This document shows, in pieces, positions 34,612 to 46,316 of a DNA stretch of 64,000 nt. The position numbers and the translations under genes were made by a program. Within the stretch, counting starts at the first letter, position 1. Each line of letters opens with the position of its first letter. A model generated the notes under the pieces. It was given only the letters and a program-made list of their open reading frames with translations. It was not told where the DNA came from and did no database searches. The stretch is from Altererythrobacter sp. KTW20L (GTDB taxonomy: Bacteria; Pseudomonadota; Alphaproteobacteria; Sphingomonadales; Sphingomonadaceae), in the NCBI RefSeq assembly GCF_023501975.1, contig NZ_JAMFLH010000002.1, positions 186,001 through 250,000 of the forward strand, in the 5' to 3' direction.

Positions 34612-35255
34612 CGGATTGGCGGCCTCCCCTGCCCGGTTACGATCCCTGCCTGGCCGTCGGTCCGCGATTGTTCCACGTGGAACATTTGGCGGATCGATTC
34701 GGGCTGCTCCGACAGTTCTTGCGCTGCCGAACGCCCTTTGGGCAACAACCAGACGGTGTCCTGTGTGGAAAACCGGGCGGATAAGCTGAGGAGCTTTTCA
34801 AGCGGAGCAAAGGCGCGGGCGCAAATGACGGCCATCGGAGCCGATTCGACCGACTCCAAACGTGTTCCGTGAACGTGGCAATTCTGCAGGTCGAACTGGC
34901 GGGCTACGCCTTCCAGCCAGGCGACGCGCTTCTTGCGCGATTCGACGAGATGGAAAGTCAGCTCAGGTCGGGCGATGGCCAGGACCAGTCCGGGCATCCC
35001 TGCTCCGCTCCCCAAGTCCATCCAGGGCGACGGTGTTTCACGTGGAACATGCAGTAATAGCTGGAGGCTGTCGGCAATGTGACGCTGCCAGACCTGGTCG
35101 AGGCTCGCGGTGGAGATCAGGTTCTGTTGTCGGTTCTCTGCTGCGAGTAGGCCGATGAACGTGGCAAGACGGTCCATTGCCGCTTCGTCGGAAAGCGTGG
35201 CGCAGAAGGCGCGTGCCTCGGCTTCGCTGGCAATGAATGGAAGACATTCGCTCAT
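34608..35255 (-). CDS. rsmG: 16S rRNA (guanine-N7)-methyltransferase RsmG (GidB)
   Basis: RsmG methylates G527 of 16S rRNA with SAM. The 215 residues carry the SAM site [20 protein letters not shown] and the [18 protein letters not shown] region. Two parS sites are inside the coding sequence: one encodes the HVPRE segment (35034-35049) and one encodes the MFHVEQ segment near the C-terminus (34669-34684). The gene therefore carries centromere function as well as coding. It overlaps mnmG and parA by four bases each. Confidence 0.95.
34669..34684. other. parS: parS site 1 (inside rsmG)
   Basis: A perfect 16-bp palindrome, TGTTCCACGTGGAACA, matches the near-universal chromosomal parS (TGTTNCACGTGNAACA). 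It lies within the rsmG coding sequence near its 3' end. Confidence 0.93.
35034..35049. other. parS: parS site 2 (inside rsmG)
   Basis: TGTTTCACGTGGAACA matches the parS consensus; one inner position breaks the palindrome. It lies in the first third of rsmG, where it encodes the HVPRE stretch. Confidence 0.9.
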
Positions 35256-37114
35256 GCTGCCGCATTCTCCATTGCCTGACGCCGCGCAAAGACCAGAAGG
35301 GCTGCTAGGGCTGCAGGTGTGATCCCCCGGACCCGACCGGCAGCCGCCAGGTCAACAGGGCGGGCTTTGGACAGTCGCTCGATCATTTCGTTGGATAGAC
35401 CCGGCACTTGGGAAAAGGGGAAGTCCCGCCCCAACTTCACTCCTTCGCTGGCTCGCAGATCGCGCAGTTCACCCTCTTGCCGTTCGAGATAGGGGGCATA
35501 GGCCACGTCCTCCGCCAGTTCGGCCGCAAGGTCGCTGGTGACATCGAGGGATTCGGGCAAGAGCGGGGCCAGCCCATCGAGCGAGATATCCGGAAATCGC
35601 AGCCATTCCCTCAAGGACATGCGGCCAACGTCGTCGCGCGTCGAAAGGCCGGTCGTGCGGAGTTCACCCGCACTGGCCTTCCTATCCAGCGCCCGGTTCC
35701 ACTCTGCCAGTTCCGCTTCCCGGTGCGTGAACCACTCGCGGCGATCAGGGCCAACACAATTGGCTGCGATGGCCAAAGGAGTGAGCCGGGTGGCCGCATT
35801 GTTGGCTCTCAGGCGCAGGCGATATTCGGCGCGCGCCGTGAGCATGCGATAAGGTTCACTCACGCCGTGCAGCGTGAGGTCATCGATCATCACCGCCATG
35901 TAGGAATTGGCGCGATCAAGCGGCGCGGGTTCGATCCCCGTGATCGCTGCAGCGGCGTGCATCCCGGCCATGAGGCCCTGGGCAGCAGCCTCCTCATAGC
36001 CCGTGGTCCCGTTGATCTGCCCGGCGCAATAGAGCCCCGGAATCGTCCGCAGTTGCAGATCGGGGCCGAGTGCGCGAGGGTCGATGTGATCGTATTCCAC
36101 CGCATAGCCCGGCACCGCCATATGCACCGCTTCCAACCCCTCCATGCTGCGCAGCATGGCGAGCTGCACGTCCGTGGGCAGCGAGGTGGAAATGCCGTTG
36201 GGATACACAAGCGCCGTATCCAGCCCCTCCGGCTCCAGGAATACCTGATGCCCGTCACGATCGGCAAAGCGGTGAATCTTGTCTTCGATCGAAGGGCAAT
36301 AGCGCGGCCCGGCCGCGCCGATGGCCCCGCTGAACAGGGGCGAACGGTGGAGGTTGTCGGCGATGATCGCGTGAGTGACCGCGTTGGTCCGGGTGATTGC
36401 GCAGAAGACCTGCGGGTTAACGCGCCCCGGCGTGAGCGGCGACATGGTCCATTGGTCGGCATCGCTGGGCTGTTCAGCCAGCCGCGCCCAATCGATGGTC
36501 CGCCCTTCGAGCCGCGGCGGGGTTCCGGTTTTCAGCCGCGCCATCGGCAAGTCAGCCTCGCGCAATTGCCTCGCCAGTGCCTGCGCAGAAGCTTCGCCAA
36601 TCCGCCCTCCGGTGAGCCGTTCCTCGCCGCGGAACAGTGTGCCGCCGAGGAAAGTGCCAGTACACAGGATCACCGCCTTGCAGACAAGCCGCGTGCCATC
36701 GGCGAGGTCCAATCCCGTGACCCGCCCTCTTTCAAGGACCAGCGCCGCAGCCTCTCCCTGGATCACCGTGAGACCTGCCTGCCCGGTGATCATCCGCTGG
36801 ATCGCGGTAGAGAACAGCTTGCGGTCGGCCTGAACGCGCGGACCCTGGACAGCGCTGCCCTTGGATCGGTTGAGCATACGATAATGGATGGCAGCGGCAT
36901 CGGCGGCGCGACCGATCAGCCCGTCAAAGGCATCGACCTCGCGCACGAGATGCCCTTTGCCCAGCCCGCCGATCGCCGGATTGCAGCTCATCGCGCCAAT
37001 CTTTGTCGCGTCGAAACTGACCAGCGCTGTCCGGGCACCCATGCGCGCAGCAACAGCCGCCGCCTCGCAACCTGCGTGGCCTCCCCCGATCACGATGATA
37101 TCGAACGCGCTCAT
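35252..37114 (-). CDS. mnmG: tRNA uridine-5-carboxymethylaminomethyl modification enzyme MnmG (GidA)
   Basis: MnmG binds FAD and works with MnmE to place carboxymethylaminomethyl groups on U34 of tRNAs. The 620 residues start with the dinucleotide-binding motif [20 protein letters not shown] and include the conserved [20 protein letters not shown] and [16 protein letters not shown]. The C-terminal helical domain binds MnmE. ATG 37114 is chosen over an in-frame ATG 18 codons upstream, which would overlap parS site 3. The rsmG start overlaps its stop by four bases. Confidence 0.96.
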
Positions 37115-37167
37115 ATGCCGCCGATAGTGCCAGCACGAAGCAAGGTCAAAGGCCGCGTTTCCGCCCA

Positions 37168-37183
37168 TGTTCCACGTGGAACA
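37168..37183. other. parS: parS site 3 (mnmE-mnmG gap)
   Basis: A second perfect TGTTCCACGTGGAACA lies in the 69-base gap between mnmE and mnmG, directly touching the mnmE stop codon. Confidence 0.93.
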
Positions 37184-38458
37184 TTACTTGCCGATACAGA
37201 AGCGGCCAAACAGCGAGTCCAGCAGGTCTTCAGTCGCCGTGCGGCCCAGCAGCATGTCGAACGCGATCCTGGCCTGGCGCAAGTGCTCGGCAAGGATGAG
37301 GGGGTCATCCACTGGCCCCACCTGCCCCAGGGCATCGGCCGCCTGGACCAGCAGGTCACGCTGGCGGCGGTTGAAGGCCACGTCTCCCGGTCCCGGCAGG
37401 TGGCTGCGCGCATGATCGACCAAGGCCTGTTTCAGCCGGTCCATGTTCATGCCGGTAACTGCCGAGATGATGTAATCGGGATCCGTCTTGGCGGCCCGAT
37501 CATCACGGTCGCATTGCGCTTCGATTTCCCAGGCACCGGGAGGCCCGTCCCCTTCCGGCCCGAGCCACAGGACCAGGTCGGCCCGCGCAATCTCGCCGTG
37601 GGCCCGATCGATGCCGATAGTCTCGATGGCATCGTCGCTACCCTCGCGCAGTCCCGCCATGTCAACGAACGAGAACGGCACGCCACCAATCGCGACCGGT
37701 CGCACCAGCACATCGCGGGTAGTGCCCGCCGTTGCTGCTGTTATGGCCGCCTCGTCTTCCAATAACGCGTTGAAAAGTGTGGACTTACCGGCATTCGGCG
37801 GACCAGCAAGGGCAACCCGGAAGCCTTCGCGCAAGGGTTCGGCTGAAGGCGCGGCCAGTGCGGCCCGCAGGTCATCGGCCAGCATAGCCAAATCGAGCGG
37901 AAAAGCGGTGGGCAGGCCCCCGACATCGTCCTCGTCATCGAAATCGAGCACGGCCTCGACCTGGGCTGACAGGATCAAGAGGCGTTCGCGCCAGCCCTCG
38001 ACCTTGGACGAGATCTGCCCACCCGCACCGGACATGGCCGCACGCCGCTGCAGCTCGGTTTCAGCAGACAGCAGGTCAGCCAGTCCTTCGGCTTCGGCGA
38101 GATCGATCCGGCCATTGGCAAAGGCGCGACGAGTAAATTCGCCCGGCCTGGCCCGGCGCAGGCCGGGTAGTGCCGCCAGTGCGGCCTCGACGGCGGCAAT
38201 CACCGCCCGCCCACCGTGGAGATGGAATTCCGCCAGGTCCTCGCCTGTTACCGATCCCGGGGCGGGAAACCACACGACCAGCCCGTCATCCAGCCGCTCG
38301 CCACTTTTATCGACCAGCCAGGCTCGGGTCGCGCGACGCGGTTCGGGCAGCTTTCCGGCAAGGGCCTGAAGCGCAGCACCGGCTTGCGGGCCCGTCACCC
38401 GGATGACAGCAATACCCGCCGGCGGCGCTCCGCTCGACAGGGCGAATATCGTATCCAT
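37184..38458 (-). CDS. mnmE: tRNA modification GTPase MnmE (TrmE)
   Basis: A 424-residue GTPase. The N-terminal tetrahydrofolate-binding domain (1-115) has the GEFTRRAFANGRIDLAEAEG motif. The G domain starts with GPPNAGKS (219-226) and has the G3 motif DMAGLRE. The closing CIGK gives the conserved C-terminal cysteine. The usual G4 motif NKxD is not recognisable in the shortened stretch after DLVLWLGPEG. It acts with MnmG on U34 of tRNA. It is 13 bases after the DUF6489 gene. Confidence 0.95.
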   Translation of the reverse strand: MDTIFALSSGAPPAGIAVIRVTGPQAGAALQALAGKLPEPRRATRAWLVDKSGERLDDGLVVWFPAPGSVTGEDLAEFHLHGGRAVIAAVEAALAALPGLRRARPGEFTRRAFANGRIDLAEAEGLADLLSAETELQRRAAMSGAGGQISSKVEGWRERLLILSAQVEAVLDFDDEDDVGGLPTAFPLDLAMLADDLRAALAAPSAEPLREGFRVALAGPPNAGKSTLFNALLEDEAAITAATAGTTRDVLVRPVAIGGVPFSFVDMAGLREGSDDAIETIGIDRAHGEIARADLVLWLGPEGDGPPGAWEIEAQCDRDDRAAKTDPDYIISAVTGMNMDRLKQALVDHARSHLPGPGDVAFNRRQRDLLVQAADALGQVGPVDDPLILAEHLRQARIAFDMLLGRTATEDLLDSLFGRFCIGK

Positions 38459-38471
38459 CGTGAAAAAGGGC

Positions 38472-38765
38472 TCAGTCCTCGTCGGACGGCTTGCGCGACT
38501 TGCCCGAAGCAGAACCGCCAGAAGCAGAACCGCTTGCAGCAGTGCGTGTTGCCCCCTCCACGAAGGACTGGAAGATCTTCAGCCCCATCTGGCCCATCGG
38601 GGCGAGCTGCTGGGCATATTCCTGCAACTGGTCGGTGTTGGTCACACCCTTCATCGCCTTGGCAATGGTATCGACATAGACCTCGTTCGCCTTGTCCACA
38701 TCGGGCAGGCCCATGAACCGCCGCGCTTCCTCGGGCGAACAATCGATTTCTATGCTGACTTTCAT
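38472..38765 (-). CDS. DUF6489 family small protein
   Basis: A 97-residue acidic protein. The conserved first part is MKVSIEIDCSPEEARRFMGL, then an amphipathic QLAPMGQMGLKIFQSFVEGA helix; the tail is rich in serine, glycine and alanine. It resembles DUF6489, a family of unknown function seen near mnmE in sphingomonads. It sits between rho and mnmE. Confidence 0.75.
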   Translation of the reverse strand: MKVSIEIDCSPEEARRFMGLPDVDKANEVYVDTIAKAMKGVTNTDQLQEYAQQLAPMGQMGLKIFQSFVEGATRTAASGSASGGSASGKSRKPSDED

Positions 38766-38861
38766 GGCCTTGCCTTCCAGAAACCCCGTCCCGGTGTCCT
38801 ATATGCGCAAGACGGTGGACATTTTCCAGTCCTGCACGCGGTGCGTCTGCCCAAGGATTCG

Positions 38862-38884
38862 AAAAAGGGGGCCGCAGCCCCCTT
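38862..38884 (-). terminator. Intrinsic terminator after rho
   Basis: On the minus strand an AAGGGGGC / GCCCCCTT stem with a four-base loop begins five bases after the rho stop and runs into TTTTT. Confidence 0.85.
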
Positions 38885-38888
38885 CCCC

Positions 38889-40145
38889 TTACTGGTTCAT
38901 CGTGGCGAAGAAGTCCTCGTTGGACTTGGAATCCTTCATCTTGTCGAGGAGGAATTCCATCGCGTCGATCGTGCCCATCTGCATCAGGATGCGGCGCAGG
39001 ACCCACATCTTGGAAAGCTGGTCCTTGCCCACCAGCAGTTCTTCCTTGCGGGTGCCGGACTTGCCGACATCGAGCGCCGGGAAGATACGCTTGTCGGCCA
39101 CCTTGCGGTCGAGGACAATTTCGCTGTTGCCGGTGCCCTTGAACTCTTCGAAAATGACCTCGTCCATACGGCTGCCGGTATCGATCAGCGCCGTGGCGAT
39201 GATCGACAGCGAGCCGCCTTCCTCGATATTGCGGGCCGCGCCGAAGAAGCGCTTGGGACGCTGCAGGGCATTGGCATCGACACCGCCGGTCAGCACCTTG
39301 CCGGAGCTTGGCACCACGGTGTTGTAAGCGCGGCCGAGGCGGGTGATGGAATCTAGCAGGATCACCACGTCGCGCTTGTGTTCGACCAGCCGCTTGGCTT
39401 TTTCGATAACCATTTCAGCAACTTGCACGTGGCGCGAGGCAGGCTCGTCGAAGGTTGAGGAGATCACCTCGCCCTTCACGCTGCGCTGCATGTCGGTCAC
39501 TTCCTCGGGCCGTTCATCGACCAGGAGGACGATCAGGAACACCTCGGGATGGTTGTCGGTAATGGCTTTTGCCATGTTCTGCAGCAGCACGGTCTTGCCG
39601 GTACGCGGCGGGGCGACGATCAGGGCGCGCTGGCCCTTGCCCTGCGGACTGATCAGATCGATCACGCGGGCGGACTTGTCCTTCACCGTGGGATCGACCG
39701 TGTCGAGGATCAGGCGCTCGTCCGGATAGAGCGGCGTCAGGTTGTCGAAATTGGTGCGGTGGCGCACGGCATCGGGATCGTCGTAATTGACCTTCAGGAG
39801 CTTGGTTAGCGCGAAATAGCGTTCGCCATCCTTGGGTGCGCGGATCTCGCCTTCGACCGTGTCACCGGTGCGCAGGCCCATCTTGCGGACCTGGTTGGGC
39901 GAGACGTAGATGTCATCCGGGCCGGCGAGGTAGTTCGCTTCCGGGCTGCGCAGGAAGCCGAAGCCATCCGACAGCACTTCGATCGTGCCGATGCCGAGGA
40001 TTTCCTCGCCGTCTTCGGCCACTTCCTTGAGGATCGCGAACATGAGGTCCTGGCGGCGCATGGTGCTGGCGCCTTCGACATCGTATTCCTCGGCCATGGA
40101 GACCAGCTCCGCGGGCGTCCTCTGCTTGAGTTCTTTGAGATGCAT
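38889..40145 (-). CDS. rho: Transcription termination factor Rho
   Basis: A 418-residue hexameric RNA helicase. The N-terminal Rho-N and cold-shock RNA-binding domains (1-125) include [20 protein letters not shown]. The ATPase core has Walker [27 protein letters not shown] and the Q-loop/R-loop region. It terminates untranslated transcripts. The 5' region of about 165 bases up to hemJ holds no other recognised feature; Rho often controls its own leader. A strong terminator follows. Confidence 0.97.
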
Positions 40146-40312
40146 GTGAAAAATTCCGTATTCAGACGTTCGGGAAGCCGGCAGGCCTAAGGGGCTGGGA
40201 GACAGCGGACCCTGTCGCTCGAGATGGCGACATCAGCCGGAACGGATTGGCGGATATGCCTTTCGGCCGCCAGCGTCAATTCGCTTTGCGGTGATCCGCG
40301 CGCGGCGACGGC

Positions 40313-40756
40313 TCAGAAGGGTTTGATGACCACCAGCACCACGATCAGCGCCGCGGCAATGCCCGGCACCTCGTTGAACAGCCTGAGCTGCTTGCCGGTC
40401 AGGCTGCGTTCGCCGCGCGCCAGTTTCTTGTGATAGCCCGCAAGATAGCCATGATAGGCCGACAGACCGAGGACAGCCAAGAACTTGGCGTGCATCCAGC
40501 CCTGGGTGAAGGCGCCCGTCGTATAGGCCAGTACCAGTCCCAGCACCCAGACCACGATCAGCGACGGGTTGAGGATGATCTTGAGCAGCTTGCGCTCGCG
40601 ATCGGTCCACACGGCGTTCTCGGGCGAATCCGGCGCTGCTTCTTGGTGATAGACGAAATAGCGCGGCAGCATGAACAGCCCGGCCATCCAGAAGATCACA
40701 AAGATGATATGGCCCGCCTTGAGCCAGGCGTAGATCATGAACAGCACTTCCTGCAT
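40313..40756 (-). CDS. hemJ: Protoporphyrinogen IX oxidase HemJ
   Basis: A 147-residue four-helix membrane protein of the HemJ (UPF0093) family. It oxidises protoporphyrinogen IX to protoporphyrin IX. The heme-ligating histidine region WLKAGHIIFVIFWMAGLFML is at the N-terminus, with PRYFVYHQEA and GWMHAKFLAVLGLSAYHGYL behind. It lies nine bases after hemE, an arrangement that is conserved next to alphaproteobacterial origins. Confidence 0.93.
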   Translation of the reverse strand: MQEVLFMIYAWLKAGHIIFVIFWMAGLFMLPRYFVYHQEAAPDSPENAVWTDRERKLLKIILNPSLIVVWVLGLVLAYTTGAFTQGWMHAKFLAVLGLSAYHGYLAGYHKKLARGERSLTGKQLRLFNEVPGIAAALIVVLVVIKPF

Positions 40757-40765
40757 CGCGGCAAG

Positions 40766-41788
40766 CTAGTCATTACCGCGCACAATTTCCAGCAGGCGTT
40801 CGACATGGGCAATCGGCGTGGTCTTGTCGATCCCGTGGCCGAGGTTGAACACGTGCGGCCGACCGGCGAAAGCGCTGAGCACATCGCGCGCCGCATCCTC
40901 CAGCTCCACCCCGCCCGAAATCAGCAGCAGCGGATCGAGATTGCCCTGCACTGGCATGCCCTGCGGCAGCTCGCGGTGGACCCAGCGCGGATCCTGCGTT
41001 TCGTCGACGCCCACGGCATCGACGCCGGTCTCATGGGCATAGGCAGGCAGCTTGGCCCCGGCACCCTTGGGGAAGCCGATGATCGGCACATCGGGATGGC
41101 GGCTGCGAATGGCATCGACGATGGTCCGCGTCGGCTCGACCACCCAGTGCTGGAACTGGCGGGGCGAGAGGCTGCCGGACCAGCTATCGAACAATTGCAC
41201 GGCTTCTGCCCCGGCATCGATCTGGCCCGACAGGTAGATGATGGAACTGTCCACGATAGCCTGGATGATCTCGCCAAAGGCCTGCGGGTCGCGATAGGCC
41301 ATCGCGCGGGCGAGGTGATGGTCCTTCGAGCCTTCACCAGCCACCATATAGGTCGCCACGGTCCACGGACTACCGATGAAGCCCAGCATGGTCACGCCAT
41401 CGGGCAGGGCGGCACGGGTGAGGCGCACGGTGTCCCACACCGGCTGGAAGTGGTGCGGCGCAGGCATGAGCGAGGCGAGCGTCGCATCGACCAGCCGCGG
41501 CGACAGGTGCGGACCCTCGCTTGCCAGGAACTGCAAGTCCTGCCCCAGGGCATGGGGGACGATCAGGATATCGGAAAACAGGATCGCGCCATCGAACCCG
41601 AAGCGCCGGATCGGCTGCAGGGTGATCTCGCTGGCTGCCTCGCTGTCATAAACCAGGTTGAGGAATCCGCCCTTCTCGGCCCGCAAGGCGCGGTACTCGG
41701 GCAGGTAGCGACCTGCCTGGCGCATCAACCACACGGGGCGCTTTTCGGTCACTGACCCACGCAAATTATCGAGCAAAATTCCGGGCAT
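40766..41788 (-). CDS. hemE: Uroporphyrinogen decarboxylase
   Basis: HemE removes four carboxyl groups from uroporphyrinogen III to give coproporphyrinogen III. The 340-residue TIM barrel has the N-terminal PVWLMRQAGRYLPEYR motif and catalytic aspartate in FGFDGAILFSDILIVPHALG; FIGSPWTVATYM and the closing FNLGHGI are also present. The start ATG is at 41788. Its upstream region is the predicted replication origin, as in Caulobacter and Rickettsia. Confidence 0.97.
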   Translation of the reverse strand: MPGILLDNLRGSVTEKRPVWLMRQAGRYLPEYRALRAEKGGFLNLVYDSEAASEITLQPIRRFGFDGAILFSDILIVPHALGQDLQFLASEGPHLSPRLVDATLASLMPAPHHFQPVWDTVRLTRAALPDGVTMLGFIGSPWTVATYMVAGEGSKDHHLARAMAYRDPQAFGEIIQAIVDSSIIYLSGQIDAGAEAVQLFDSWSGSLSPRQFQHWVVEPTRTIVDAIRSRHPDVPIIGFPKGAGAKLPAYAHETGVDAVGVDETQDPRWVHRELPQGMPVQGNLDPLLLISGGVELEDAARDVLSAFAGRPHVFNLGHGIDKTTPIAHVERLLEIVRGND

Positions 41789-42089
41789 CGGGGAGTCCAG
41801 ACTAAATATAATAGAGTCTTATAAGAGGTTTATGCTGTTAGTAGGCCCTGTGGAAAGCGGGGACAGCGCGCCCTTGCCCGATTTGTCCCGCTTTGGCCAG
41901 ATGCTGCCCGCGATGCGACTCACTGGCTTCTCGTGGTCAAGCCGGAGTTCTCCCCGCTATCCCCGGCCTGTTGAAAAGCCTGGCTGCCTGTCCACAAGGC
42001 ATCTCGCCAAATGACCGGTAGCGGGGGTGAAATGTCATCCCGTGCTTGTCCGCCATTCCCTCCCGTGGTTTATGCTGCCACTTGTCCAC
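41789..42089. other. oriC: Predicted chromosomal replication origin (oriC) between hemE and ppsR
   Basis: The 301-base gap separates divergent gene blocks (minus to the left, plus to the right). An AT-rich patch lies at 41800-41840 in otherwise GC-rich DNA and contains TATAAT (41807-41812). DnaA-box-like 9-mers: 41849-41857 (minus, one mismatch to TTWTNCACA), 41969-41977 (minus, one mismatch), 41988-41996 (plus, two) and 42082-42090 (plus, one). GANTC sites are at 41793-41797, 41814-41818 and 41917-41921. The hemE / RP001-homologue setting is the known Caulobacter-Rickettsia origin location. The 60-codon open frame at 41832-42014 is not convincing. Confidence 0.8.
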
Positions 42090-42935
42090 ATGGCCCGGCT
42101 GCACCTCCACCTCCTGTCGGATTCAACCGGCGAAACGCTCGAGATGATCGCCAAGGCGGCTCTCGCGCAGTTCGACGATGCCGATGTCACGCGCCATTTC
42201 TGGCCGATGGTCCGCTCGCGCCAGCATCTTGACCGCATCATGGACGAGTTCAAGGCCAATCCCGGCCTGGTGCTGTTTACTCTCGCCAATCCCGAAACCC
42301 GCGCCCGGCTGGAGGAGCGCTGCCGCCTGCTCGGCCTGCCGCATATTGCCGCGCTCGATGCCGTCACCCATGCGCTGGAGGACCGGCTGGGACAGGAAGC
42401 CCATGCCCGCCCGGGCGCGCGCCACGTGATGGACCAGGCCTATTTCGACCGGGTCGATGCCATCCAGTTCACTATCGCCCACGATGACGGGATCGGCTGG
42501 GAGAACTGGGAAGCGGCCGATATCCTGCTGGCGGGCGTGTCACGCAGTTCCAAGACGCCAACCAGCATCTACCTTGCCAACCGCGGCTTCAAGGTGGCGA
42601 ACATCCCGCTGGTGGTGGAAAGCCCGCCGCCTTCCTCGCTGTTCGAACTGCGTGGGCCGATGGTCGTGGGCCTCACCACTGCTCCGCGCCGCCTGATCGA
42701 GATCCGCCGCAACCGCCTGCTGTCATTGAACGAACGGACCGAGACGGCCTATGTCTCGGAAGAGCGGGTTGAAGCCGAAGTCGCCTTTGCCCGCCGCATG
42801 TTCGCCGACAACGGCTGGCCGGTGATCGATGTCACCCGGCGCTCGATCGAAGAGACTGCCGCTGCGGTGATCAAGCTTTACCAGGAGCGGCAGGCGCGGA
42901 CCAATCCCGAGGTGGTGGGACCGAAGCCGATATGA
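42090..42935 (+). CDS. ppsR: Pyruvate, phosphate dikinase / PEP synthase regulatory protein (DUF299, RP001 homologue)
   Basis: A 281-residue bifunctional serine/threonine kinase and pyrophosphorylase that switches PEP synthase or pyruvate, phosphate dikinase off and on. The family start is [15 protein letters not shown] and the P-loop is GVSRSSKT (149-156). I chose ATG 42090, which fits homologues; in-frame starts at 42072 and 42027 would extend it into the origin region. The gene is the equivalent of RP001, the first gene right of the origin in Rickettsia and Caulobacter. It overlaps maf by four bases. Confidence 0.9.
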
Positions 42936-43510
42936 TTGTTCTGGCTTCCAAGAGTGCCTCGCGGCAGGCAATGCTGACGGCTGCGGGTGTGGCATTCGAG
43001 GCGCGCCCCGTAGCGCTGGACGAGCGCGCGGTTGAAGCCGCGCTGGGCGATGCCCCGCCCGCCCAGGTGGCTCTCGCCCTTGCCCGGGCCAAGGCGCTGG
43101 CCGTGGACGAGGCTGCTGCGCTTGTGCTGGGCAGCGATTCGCTGGTGGTCTGTGACGGCCGCCGGTTCGACAAGCCCGCCAGCCGCGAAGATGCCGCTAC
43201 TCACCTGCGCTTCTTCTCGGGCAAGGAGATGGAATTGCACTCGGCAGCGGCACTTGCGCGAAGCGGCGCTGTCGTGTGGGACCATGCGGCCGTCGTACGC
43301 CTGCATGTCCGCGACCTGAGCGATGACTTCATCGCAAGCTATCTCGCTGCGGAATGGCCCGAAGTCGGCTATTGCGTGGGCGTGTTCCGGATCGAGGCTA
43401 TGGGTGTGCAACTGTTCGACAGCATAGAGGGCGACCACTTCACCGTCCTCGGCATGCCCCTGCTGCCGGTGCTCGGTGCGTTGCGTGACATGGCGGAGCT
43501 GCCTGCATGA
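42932..43510 (+). CDS. maf: Maf-type nucleoside triphosphate pyrophosphatase
   Basis: A 192-residue house-cleaning enzyme that hydrolyses non-canonical or modified nucleotides. It has the [16 protein letters not shown] start, the [17 protein letters not shown] block with the catalytic aspartate, and [19 protein letters not shown]. The exact substrate class (dTTP/UTP or modified) is not resolved. It overlaps ppsR and aroE by four bases each, in the origin-proximal ppsR-maf-aroE-coaE run. Confidence 0.92.
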
Positions 43511-44376
43511 CCCTGCCCTATGCCGAAGTGATCGGCGACCCCATCGTGCAATCCAAGAGCCCGGCGATCCACAATTACTGGCTCGGCACGCTGGGCATCG
43601 CGGCGGATTATCGCGCGGCCCACGTTACGGCTGAGGGGCTGGAAAGCTATCTCGCCAAACGGCGCGAGGATCCGCTGTGGCGCGGGTGCAATGTCACCAT
43701 GCCGCACAAGCAGGCGGTGATGCCCTTCCTCGACCGGCTGGAAATCGGCGCGGAAATGGTCGGCGCGGTCAATACCATTACCCGGCGCGAACGGTCGGGC
43801 GAGGTGCGGTTGATCGGCACCAACACCGACATGGCGGGTTTCATGGAGCCGCTGCTGCCCATGCTCGAAACGCCGCACTATTTCCGCATGGCCCGCGTGC
43901 TGGGCACAGGCGGCGCGGCGCGGGCCATCGTGGCGGCGCTGGCCGAACAGGGGGTGATGGTGGTGCTGGCGGGCCGCGATCCGGCCAAGGCCCGCGCCAT
44001 CCTCGACGAGATTGACCCCGAGGGCGAACATCACGTGGCGGACCTGTCGCATTTTGCCGACCCCACCGATTTTGCATTCGATGACCGCGAAGGCTGTTTC
44101 GACCTGGTGGTGAACGCCAGCCCGCTGGGCATGGCGGGCCAGCCGCCGCTGCTGTTCGACCTAACCCATGCCCCGCCCGGTTCGATCTTTTATGACATCG
44201 TCACCTATCCCGCCGACACACCCCTGTTGCAGGCGGCACGCGGTGCCGGTTTTCGCACGATCGACGGGTTGTCGATGCTGATCGGGCAGGCGGCCGTGGC
44301 CTTCGAGAAGTTCTTCGGTTCGCCGCCGCCACGCGATGACGGGGACGCCGGTCTGCGGGCGCTGCTGGCAAAATGA
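43507..44376 (+). CDS. aroE: Shikimate dehydrogenase
   Basis: AroE reduces 3-dehydroshikimate to shikimate with NADPH in aromatic amino acid synthesis. The 289 residues show [20 protein letters not shown], the catalytic lysine in [21 protein letters not shown], the nucleotide loop [15 protein letters not shown], and NASPLGM. It overlaps maf and coaE by four bases each. Confidence 0.95.
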
Positions 44377-44963
44377 AGCGCCCGCTCATCATCGGCCTCA
44401 CCGGCTCGATCGGCATGGGCAAGAGCACTTCGGCGCGCATGTTTGCCGACCTGGGTGTGCCGGTGTTCGATGCCGATGCCGAGGTTCACCGCCTGCAGGG
44501 GCCGGACGGCGCGCTGGTCGAAGCCATCGAGGCGGCCTTTCCCGGCACGACCGGGCCGGACGGCGTGCGGCGCGACAGGCTGGGCGCACAGGTGTTCGGC
44601 GATCCGGCGGCTCTCGCCAGGCTCGAAGCCCTGGTCCATCCGGCGGTCCAGGCCGCCCGCGCGCAGTTCCTGGCCGAGCACCGGGAAGCCCCGCTGATCG
44701 TGTTCGATATCCCCCTGCTGTTCGAGAAGGATCTCGTGCACGAGGTGGACCGCGTGGTGGTTGTCTCCGCTCCGGCCGCTGTCCAGCGCGAGCGGGTGAT
44801 GGCGCGGGCGGGCATGACCGAGGAGAAATTCGCTGCCATCCGCGCCGCCCAGATGCCCGATGGAGAAAAGCGCGCCCGCGCCCACTTCGTGATCGACAGT
44901 AGCGGACCACTGGAACAGACCGCAAAAACCGTGGCGAAGCTGGTGGCAAGCCTCAAAGCCTAG
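44373..44963 (+). CDS. coaE: Dephospho-CoA kinase
   Basis: CoaE phosphorylates dephospho-CoA at the 3'-hydroxyl in the last step of CoA synthesis. The 196 residues start with the P-loop GLTGSIGMGKSTSARMFADL, followed by VFDADAEVHRL and VFDIPLLFEKDL. It is the third partner of the overlapping maf-aroE-coaE run; dnaQ follows after 35 bases. Confidence 0.95.
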   Translation: MKRPLIIGLTGSIGMGKSTSARMFADLGVPVFDADAEVHRLQGPDGALVEAIEAAFPGTTGPDGVRRDRLGAQVFGDPAALARLEALVHPAVQAARAQFLAEHREAPLIVFDIPLLFEKDLVHEVDRVVVVSAPAAVQRERVMARAGMTEEKFAAIRAAQMPDGEKRARAHFVIDSSGPLEQTAKTVAKLVASLKA

Positions 44964-44998
44964 TTGCCAGCGCCCGCCCTGAGTCCGATAGTCCGATC

Positions 44999-45685
44999 AT
45001 GCGCGAAATAGTCTTCGATACCGAAACCACCGGCCTCGATCCCCTGTCGGGCGACCGGCTGGTGGAAATCGGCTGTGTGGAAATGGTCAACCGCTGCCCC
45101 ACGGGTCGCAATTTCCACGCCTGGTGCAACCCGCAGCGCGACATGCCGATGGAGGCAGAGCGCGTCCATGGCCTGAGTTCCGCCTTCCTGGCCGACAAGC
45201 CGCTGTTCGGCGCCATTGCCGCAGACCTGCTGGCTTTCCTCGGCGACAGTCCGCTGGTGGCACACAACGCGCAGTTCGATTTCGGCTTCCTCAATGCCGA
45301 GCTGGCGGCTTGTGCACATGAACCGATCAGCCTCGACCGGATGGTCGACACCCTGGCCATAGCCCGCCGCCGTCATCCGGGAGCCAAGCATTCCCTCGAT
45401 GCGCTGTGTACCCGCTATGGCGTGGACCGCAGCCACCGGGTGAAGCACGGCGCGCTGCTCGATGCCGAGCTTCTGGCCCAGGTCTATGTCGAATTGACCG
45501 GCGGGCGCCAGATCGGGCTGGAGCTGGCAGGCGAAGTGACTGTCACCACGGTCGAAATCACCACGTTCCGCCCGCGTACAGGCGGCGTGCTGCGCCCCGC
45601 CCGGCCCCACGCCGCCACGGCAGAGGAACTGGCCCGCCACGCGGAATTTCTTGAAACACTGAAAGCCCCTTTATGGCTTAATTAG
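44999..45685 (+). CDS. dnaQ: DNA polymerase III epsilon subunit (3'-5' exonuclease)
   Basis: The 228-residue proofreading subunit. Exo I is VFDTETTGL (residues 5-13), Exo II is VAHNAQFDFGFLN and the third motif is KHGALLDAELLAQVY with the catalytic histidine and aspartate. The C-terminal tail should bind the polymerase alpha subunit. Its location four genes right of the origin matches Caulobacter gene order. Confidence 0.95.
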   Translation: MREIVFDTETTGLDPLSGDRLVEIGCVEMVNRCPTGRNFHAWCNPQRDMPMEAERVHGLSSAFLADKPLFGAIAADLLAFLGDSPLVAHNAQFDFGFLNAELAACAHEPISLDRMVDTLAIARRRHPGAKHSLDALCTRYGVDRSHRVKHGALLDAELLAQVYVELTGGRQIGLELAGEVTVTTVEITTFRPRTGGVLRPARPHAATAEELARHAEFLETLKAPLWLN

Positions 45686-45740
45686 GTCCCAATCGGTTCC
45701 TATATAGAGTTTCGAGGATCATCGAAGGAGAGACCAAGCT

Positions 45741-46316
45741 ATGGATATCCGCGTTTCCGGCCACCAGATCGACACCGGCGCTGCCCTGCAGGAGCACGCT
45801 TCCGACCGTCTCGGATCGATTGTGGACAAGCATTTCAGTCGGGCGCTGTCATCTGCGGTTACTTTCGGCAAGGCACCGGGCCACGCGTTCGACTGCGATA
45901 TCGTGCTGCACGTCAACCAGGGCCTGATCCTCAAGAGCCACGGCGAGGCGCACGATGTGCACGTGGCGTTCGACCAGGCAGCAGACAAGATCGAGAAGCA
46001 GCTGCGCCGCTATCGCCGCCGGCTGAAGGACCGCCACGAACAGGCCGCCCATGCCCAGCGCGAGGAAGATGCCGCCTATACCGTCTTCGCCTATGTCGAA
46101 CCCGAAGCCGAAGAGGACGAGGACCAGGGCGCCGATGCCCCGCCGGTAATCGCCGAGACGCGGGTCGATATCCCCGAAGTCAGCGTGTCGGACGCGGTCA
46201 TGCTGCTCGACTTGCGGCACACCAACGCGCTGTTCTTCAAAAATGCTGGCACCGGGCGGCATAATATGGTGTACCGCCGCCGCGATGGATCGATCGGCTG
46301 GGTCGAACCGTCCTGA
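45741..46316 (+). CDS. hpf: Long-form ribosome hibernation-promoting factor
   Basis: A 191-residue long HPF. The N-terminal domain (1-100) binds the 30S decoding region (DIRVSGHQIDTGAALQEHAS), an acidic linker follows, and the C-terminal domain (about 133-190, VSDAVMLLDLRHTNALFF) joins two 30S subunits into 100S dimers. A strong GAAGGAGAG precedes the ATG. The hpf-ptsN order is that of many rpoN loci, but rpoN itself is not here. Confidence 0.93.
   Translation: MDIRVSGHQIDTGAALQEHASDRLGSIVDKHFSRALSSAVTFGKAPGHAFDCDIVLHVNQGLILKSHGEAHDVHVAFDQAADKIEKQLRRYRRRLKDRHEQAAHAQREEDAAYTVFAYVEPEAEEDEDQGADAPPVIAETRVDIPEVSVSDAVMLLDLRHTNALFFKNAGTGRHNMVYRRRDGSIGWVEPS

Follow-up and report, generated by a model that had tools for sequence, protein, structure and literature searches.

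The hemE-PPSR intergenic gap as the probable chromosomal replication origin of Altererythrobacter sp. KTW20L

Our analysis of the 64,000-nucleotide stretch of DNA referred to here as the window (G000:C12:186001-250000, from a draft genome of 3.09 Mb in 35 contigs) suggests that the entire intergenic gap between hemE and the COG1806/PF03618 gene (PPSR, RP001), that is, the 301 bp at 41789..42089 (no strand assigned), is very probably the chromosomal replication origin (oriC), and that this origin is of the hemE/COG1806 type. Its location, the DnaA boxes, an AT-rich patch, the parS sites, the conservation and the sign of the strand bias are read from the sequence, and from these we infer that DnaA binds, that the DNA opens, that replication starts bidirectionally and that methylation plays a role. 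The gap is bounded by divergent starts: hemE (40766..41788, minus strand, PF01208) begins at 41788, while PPSR (42090..42935, plus strand, PF03618) has its ATG at 42090. A preliminary description had placed an origin at this boundary and had read the gene order as rho-hemJ-hemE / ppsR-maf-aroE-coaE-dnaQ; the ten neighbouring proteins indeed carry the expected Pfam families, namely ParA-type ATPase, GidB, Rho, UPF0093 (hemJ) and URO-D (hemE) on the left and Kinase-PPPase (PF03618), Maf, shikimate DH, CoaE and RNase_T exonuclease on the right, and the proposed origin is supported by the boxes, the AT-rich patch, the nearby parS sites and the conservation described below. In a search that may omit records very near the window's genome, the closest PPSR proteins found (90% and 89%) came from a MAG labelled Altererythrobacter xiamenensis and from Alteraurantiacibacter aquimixticola, respectively, which probably places the organism in the Erythrobacteraceae. 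No Rfam family was found in the window at gathering scores.

This location has already been published for sphingomonads, and the window's probable origin thus lies in the expected place and is of a known type. For Sphingopyxis granuli TFA, oriC has been predicted close to hemE, together with DnaA boxes and a DNA unwinding element (DUE), and DoriC predicts the same location in most Sphingomonadaceae; for S. alaskensis, whose origin DoriC annotates at another site, the same paper argues for relocation to hemE (PMC4741004, which refers to Brassinga et al. 2001). The window resembles S. granuli TFA, a member of another genus, in gene neighbourhood, putative DnaA boxes and putative DUE (PMC4741004). 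The likeness to the Caulobacter origin, noted in the preliminary description, agrees with the hemE/COG1806 origin location described for Caulobacter and Rickettsia (PMC1914354). Besides this site, Caulobacter crescentus Cori shares with the window an AT-rich region, G-boxes (DnaA boxes in which a T is changed to G) and parS within about 8 kb (PMC1914354, PMC4468827). The ori of Rickettsia prowazekii has the same hemE/COG1806 boundary genes but differs in its 82.6% AT (PMC1914354) and in the CtrA and IHF sites reported for it. With the probable origin of the draft genome fixed, contigs and replichores can be oriented and gene-dosage expectations set; in addition, the comparison yields a footprint, drawn from many genera, of an origin in Alphaproteobacteria that lacks full CtrA sites and carries one conserved element.

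Within the gap, the features expected of an origin stand out from chance. The AT-rich patch, a predicted and probable DNA unwinding element (41801..41840, no strand), adjoins the hemE start; it had been placed at 41800-41840, and the 40-mer with the highest AT content in the gap does start at 41801, with 30/40 A/T. Its AT content was reached in 7 of 2000 dinucleotide shuffles and, over 40 nt, at just three places, the gap included, in the 470 kb read on contigs C12 and C35. Exactly four 9-mers of the gap lie within two mismatches of TTATCCACA, whereas only one of 2000 dinucleotide shuffles has at least four; three of them carry TKTCCACA, and three such sites occurred in none of 2000 shuffles. 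The shuffle counts hence put both the boxes and the AT patch beyond chance. All four 9-mers had been listed beforehand at their actual positions, and three of them hold up as predicted DnaA boxes: CTTTCCACA (41849..41857, minus strand), which adjoins the AT patch, is conserved in position and has the family consensus CTGTGGATA on the plus strand; CTGTCCACA (41988..41996, plus strand), which is partly conserved; and TTGTCCACA (42082..42090, plus strand), which in the window runs into the PPSR start codon and whose TCCACA is strongly conserved. The remaining one, TTTTCAACA (41969..41977, minus strand), is a weak DnaA-box-like 9-mer without conservation in the alignment. The closest pair of TGTCCACA genome-wide (n = 60) is the one in the gap, 94 bp apart. 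Over the 470 kb covered on C12 and C35, three TKTCCACA occur within 302 nt nowhere but in the gap; TDTCCACA, for comparison, has 119 sites in the 3.09-Mb genome.

Several minor observations concern the same motifs. Seven TKTCCACA, four of them outside the gap, fall within about 11 kb (window 34764-45828), a segment whose boundaries were chosen after seeing the data. An exact 11-nt direct repeat, GGTTTATGCTG, is found at window 41827-41837 and 42067-42077, and its left copy is absent from the family consensus. By eye, GTTAGTAG, which adjoins the 41849 box, might be read as a DnaA-trio; since the family alignment has GTCTGTTGG as its consensus at this position, we do not claim one. A literature search for DnaA-trios in alphaproteobacterial oriC led only to work on epsilonproteobacteria.

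In the mechanism that we envisage, DnaA-ATP would bind the TCCACA boxes, two of which read toward PPSR and one toward hemE, and would assemble across the gap so as to open the AT-rich patch beside hemE; the helicase would be loaded at the opened patch and two forks would depart, after which the parS sites 5-7 kb away would lead segregation, while CcrM-methylated GANTC sites would probably mark replicated origins.

The same arrangement is retained among relatives. Of the best 80 of 568 relatives, which were fetched for comparison and whose shared ancestry makes the counts non-independent, 78 keep the divergent hemE-PPSR pair with a gap of 291-386 bp, and in the other two the contigs end before hemE. 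In the resulting 79 gaps (78 relatives and the window) the mean GC content is 54.0% vs 62.0% in the flanks, and the AT-richest 40-mer begins a median of 7 nt from the hemE start codon. When compared with the flanks, the density in these gaps is 111-fold higher for TDTCCACA, 8.7-fold higher for GANTC and 79-fold higher for GGTTTATG. TCCACA and GANTC are each present in 79/79 gaps and TDTCCACA in 74/79, its exact form being absent from the other five.

Further support comes from parS, for which we searched the whole genome with the pattern TGTTYCACGTGRAACA, allowing at most one mismatch; we take this pattern to be the parS motif, and the host ParB may use another. Three sites were found genome-wide, all of them 4.6-7.1 kb from the gap and beside parA, rsmG and mnmG (the latter by ORF only): TGTTCCACGTGGAACA at 34669..34684, TGTTTCACGTGGAACA at 35034..35049 and TGTTCCACGTGGAACA again at 37168..37183, each a pattern match with no strand assigned. 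In Caulobacter, parS lies within 8 kb of Cori, and in a survey cited by the same paper 92% of parS sites fall within the ori-proximal 15% of the chromosome (PMC4468827). As a side observation, a DnaA-like box, TTTTCCACA, is located at window 34764-34772, 80 bp from a parS site; DnaA has been reported to bind parS in Caulobacter (PMC6399470).

The strand bias of the genome itself agrees in sign with this location on contig C12, although the change at the gap is weak. GC skew is -0.0089 left of the gap and +0.0068 right of it, and the forward:reverse ratio of GGGNAGGG, a KOPS-like motif which we take to be KOPS and which may not be what the host FtsK uses, is 14:32 on the left and 10:7 on the right (Fisher p 0.047). 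A skew switch far from 41.9 kb had been named beforehand as speaking against an origin here; on this one contig of a draft (296 kb, bases 6001 to end), the cumulative GC-skew minimum is at window 52.1 kb, 10 kb from the gap, and within the limits of a draft no such distant switch appears.

Two relatives extend this comparison. In G001 (NZ_LR701479.1), where 40 stretches of 20 kb were sampled, the best fits of GC skew and KOPS place the terminus at 2.506-2.584 Mb and hence the opposite point at 0.984 Mb, compared with 1.051 Mb for the gap (from the locus range) and 0.477 Mb for dnaA. G003 is a 2.32-Mb contig of an uncultured Erythrobacter whose genome has about 2.8 Mb; its dense forward KOPS ends at 383 kb, and half a genome onward is about 1.78 Mb, compared with 1.804 Mb for the gap and 1.410 Mb for dnaA. 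The gap, unlike dnaA, is thus near the point opposite the terminus in both, though the strand-bias fits peak elsewhere. The GC skew is a weak and noisy signal: its two-break fit in G001 scores highest (0.01076) when the origin is put at 10-88 kb. With KOPS, the two-break optimum in G001 is 868-946 kb (313.8), and the gap (282.1) ranks above dnaA (248.0), while the one-step KOPS fit has its change at 0.917 or 1.261 Mb, depending on whether the data are cut at 1.2 or 1.404 Mb; the list of reverse-strand KOPS of G001 (n = 360) was left out of the fits. The one-step fit for G003 places the change at 1.667 Mb, with the gap barely better than dnaA (-4.76 vs -5.65 logL). The gap falls outside the 3-logL range in all three one-step KOPS fits of G001 and G003, trailing the best position by 3.6 to 5.8 logL; the one-step model is a poor one, since KOPS density climbs gradually toward the terminus. 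The strand data of the relatives therefore place the origin to about 100-200 kb only, and it is parS, the boxes and the conservation that narrow this down further. In a further relative, G002, dnaA is at 1.805 Mb and the gap at 2.212 Mb.

It is highly unlikely, in our estimate, that replication starts downstream of dnaA instead (G000:C35, about 59.9-60.1 kb) and that the hemE gap is merely regulatory, even though that region does contain four TCCACA within about 230 bp (L095, 62-293 nt after the dnaA match), and two TGTCCACA 148 bp apart behind the dnaA stop form the second-closest pair of the genome, accompanied by GGGTCCACA and CCGTCCACA. The GC-skew fit in G001 likewise ranks dnaA (0.00848) slightly above the gap (0.00800), but the one-step KOPS fits of the same genome put dnaA 6.8 and 23 logL below the best. 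On C35 itself, KOPS forward:reverse counts are 2:16 left and 4:16 right of dnaA (6:32 in total) and GC skew is -0.021 and -0.014, respectively; since both measures keep the same sign on either side, they argue against an origin at dnaA. This contig is moreover without parS, and within 520 nt behind dnaA only 2, 1 and 1 TCCACA are present in the three relatives examined. We have therefore rejected the dnaA-downstream cluster as origin on the constant strand bias, the lack of parS, its weakness in relatives and the KOPS fits. Its four TCCACA may perhaps serve DnaA titration or autoregulation.

Alternatively, the gap could be a divergent hemE/PPSR promoter region under the control of DnaA and GcrA/CcrM, with replication starting elsewhere in the wider region, for example close to parAB or at a distance of up to about 200 kb. 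The window's DnaA box at the PPSR start codon would fit such a role, GANTC enrichment suits promoters as well, and the KOPS change points in the two relatives are about 105-210 kb from the gap. Several boxes together with an AT patch, in constant order across many genera, represent the anatomy of an origin, though, and the 470 kb read, which take in the par region, contain no second 302-nt stretch with three TKTCCACA; a consensus scan of 41600-42300 found no sigma-70 consensus promoter either. We thus regard this alternative as extremely improbable, and an origin within the hemE-PPSR gap as the reading to be preferred.

Regarding the control of this origin, the gap contains a conserved GCGACTC with a GANTC (CcrM-type) site (41915..41921, plus strand, from the family alignment) and further GANTC sites at 41793 and 41814. 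Three GANTC were matched by 110 of 2000 dinucleotide shuffles, so that the GANTC content of one gap alone is not beyond chance. The genome encodes a GcrA match (PF07750, found also in Caulobacter and Sulfolobus among 14 control genomes) and a match to the RAMA domain typical of CcrM (PF18755, found among the controls in Caulobacter only), which suggests that the GANTC sites are probably methylated in the window's organism. Over the window as a whole there are 91 GANTC, about 2.7-fold fewer than the mean of 248 in shuffles, yet the site is enriched in the origin gaps of the 79 genomes. Unlike Caulobacter crescentus Cori, none of the 79 gaps exhibits a full CtrA site TTAA-N7-TTAA, and the CtrA pattern TTAACCAT was likewise found in 0/79, so that CtrA control via full sites was rejected. 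An exact IHF site at the origin was dropped as well, because exact matches to WATCAANNNNTTR, which we take to be the IHF consensus and which may not be that of the host, were found in 0/79 gaps, a further difference from Cori. CtrA sites have been predicted in Wolbachia and relatives (PMC1914354).

The PPSR end of the gap harbours a conserved element, TCCCGTGGTTTATGCT (42061..42076, plus strand), recognized by its conservation in the family. GTGGTTTAT is present in 76/79 gaps, and the distance from its match to the next TCCACA is 10 nt in 64 gaps, 9 nt in four and 11 nt in two; in the other six, no TCCACA follows before the end of the stretch examined. The 14-mer TCCCGTGGTTTATG occurs as a single copy in each of 31 of the 147 genomes of the order that were searched, and 30 of these 31 belong to the window's family (86 family genomes, counted from the listing). 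Among the 30 TCCCGTGGTTTATG loci fetched, 29 lie in the hemE-PPSR gap, the window's own included, the exception (L150) being from another family. The box after the element overlaps the PPSR start codon only in the window and some relatives, the start being further downstream in others. The GTGGTTTAT element may be undescribed. We tentatively propose, at somewhat less than even chance, that origins of Erythrobacteraceae and Novosphingobium-like relatives possess a composite module located at the PPSR end and made up of GTGGTTTATGC and, at near-fixed distance behind it, a DnaA box. Such a module might be where DnaA nucleates; alternatively, among the closest relatives of the window, it might act as a near-leaderless promoter of PPSR that couples PPSR transcription to initiation. 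Control would then be via DnaA and GANTC methylation, without CtrA at the origin. Read backwards, the element gives TAAACCACG, which resembles a very weak DnaA box.
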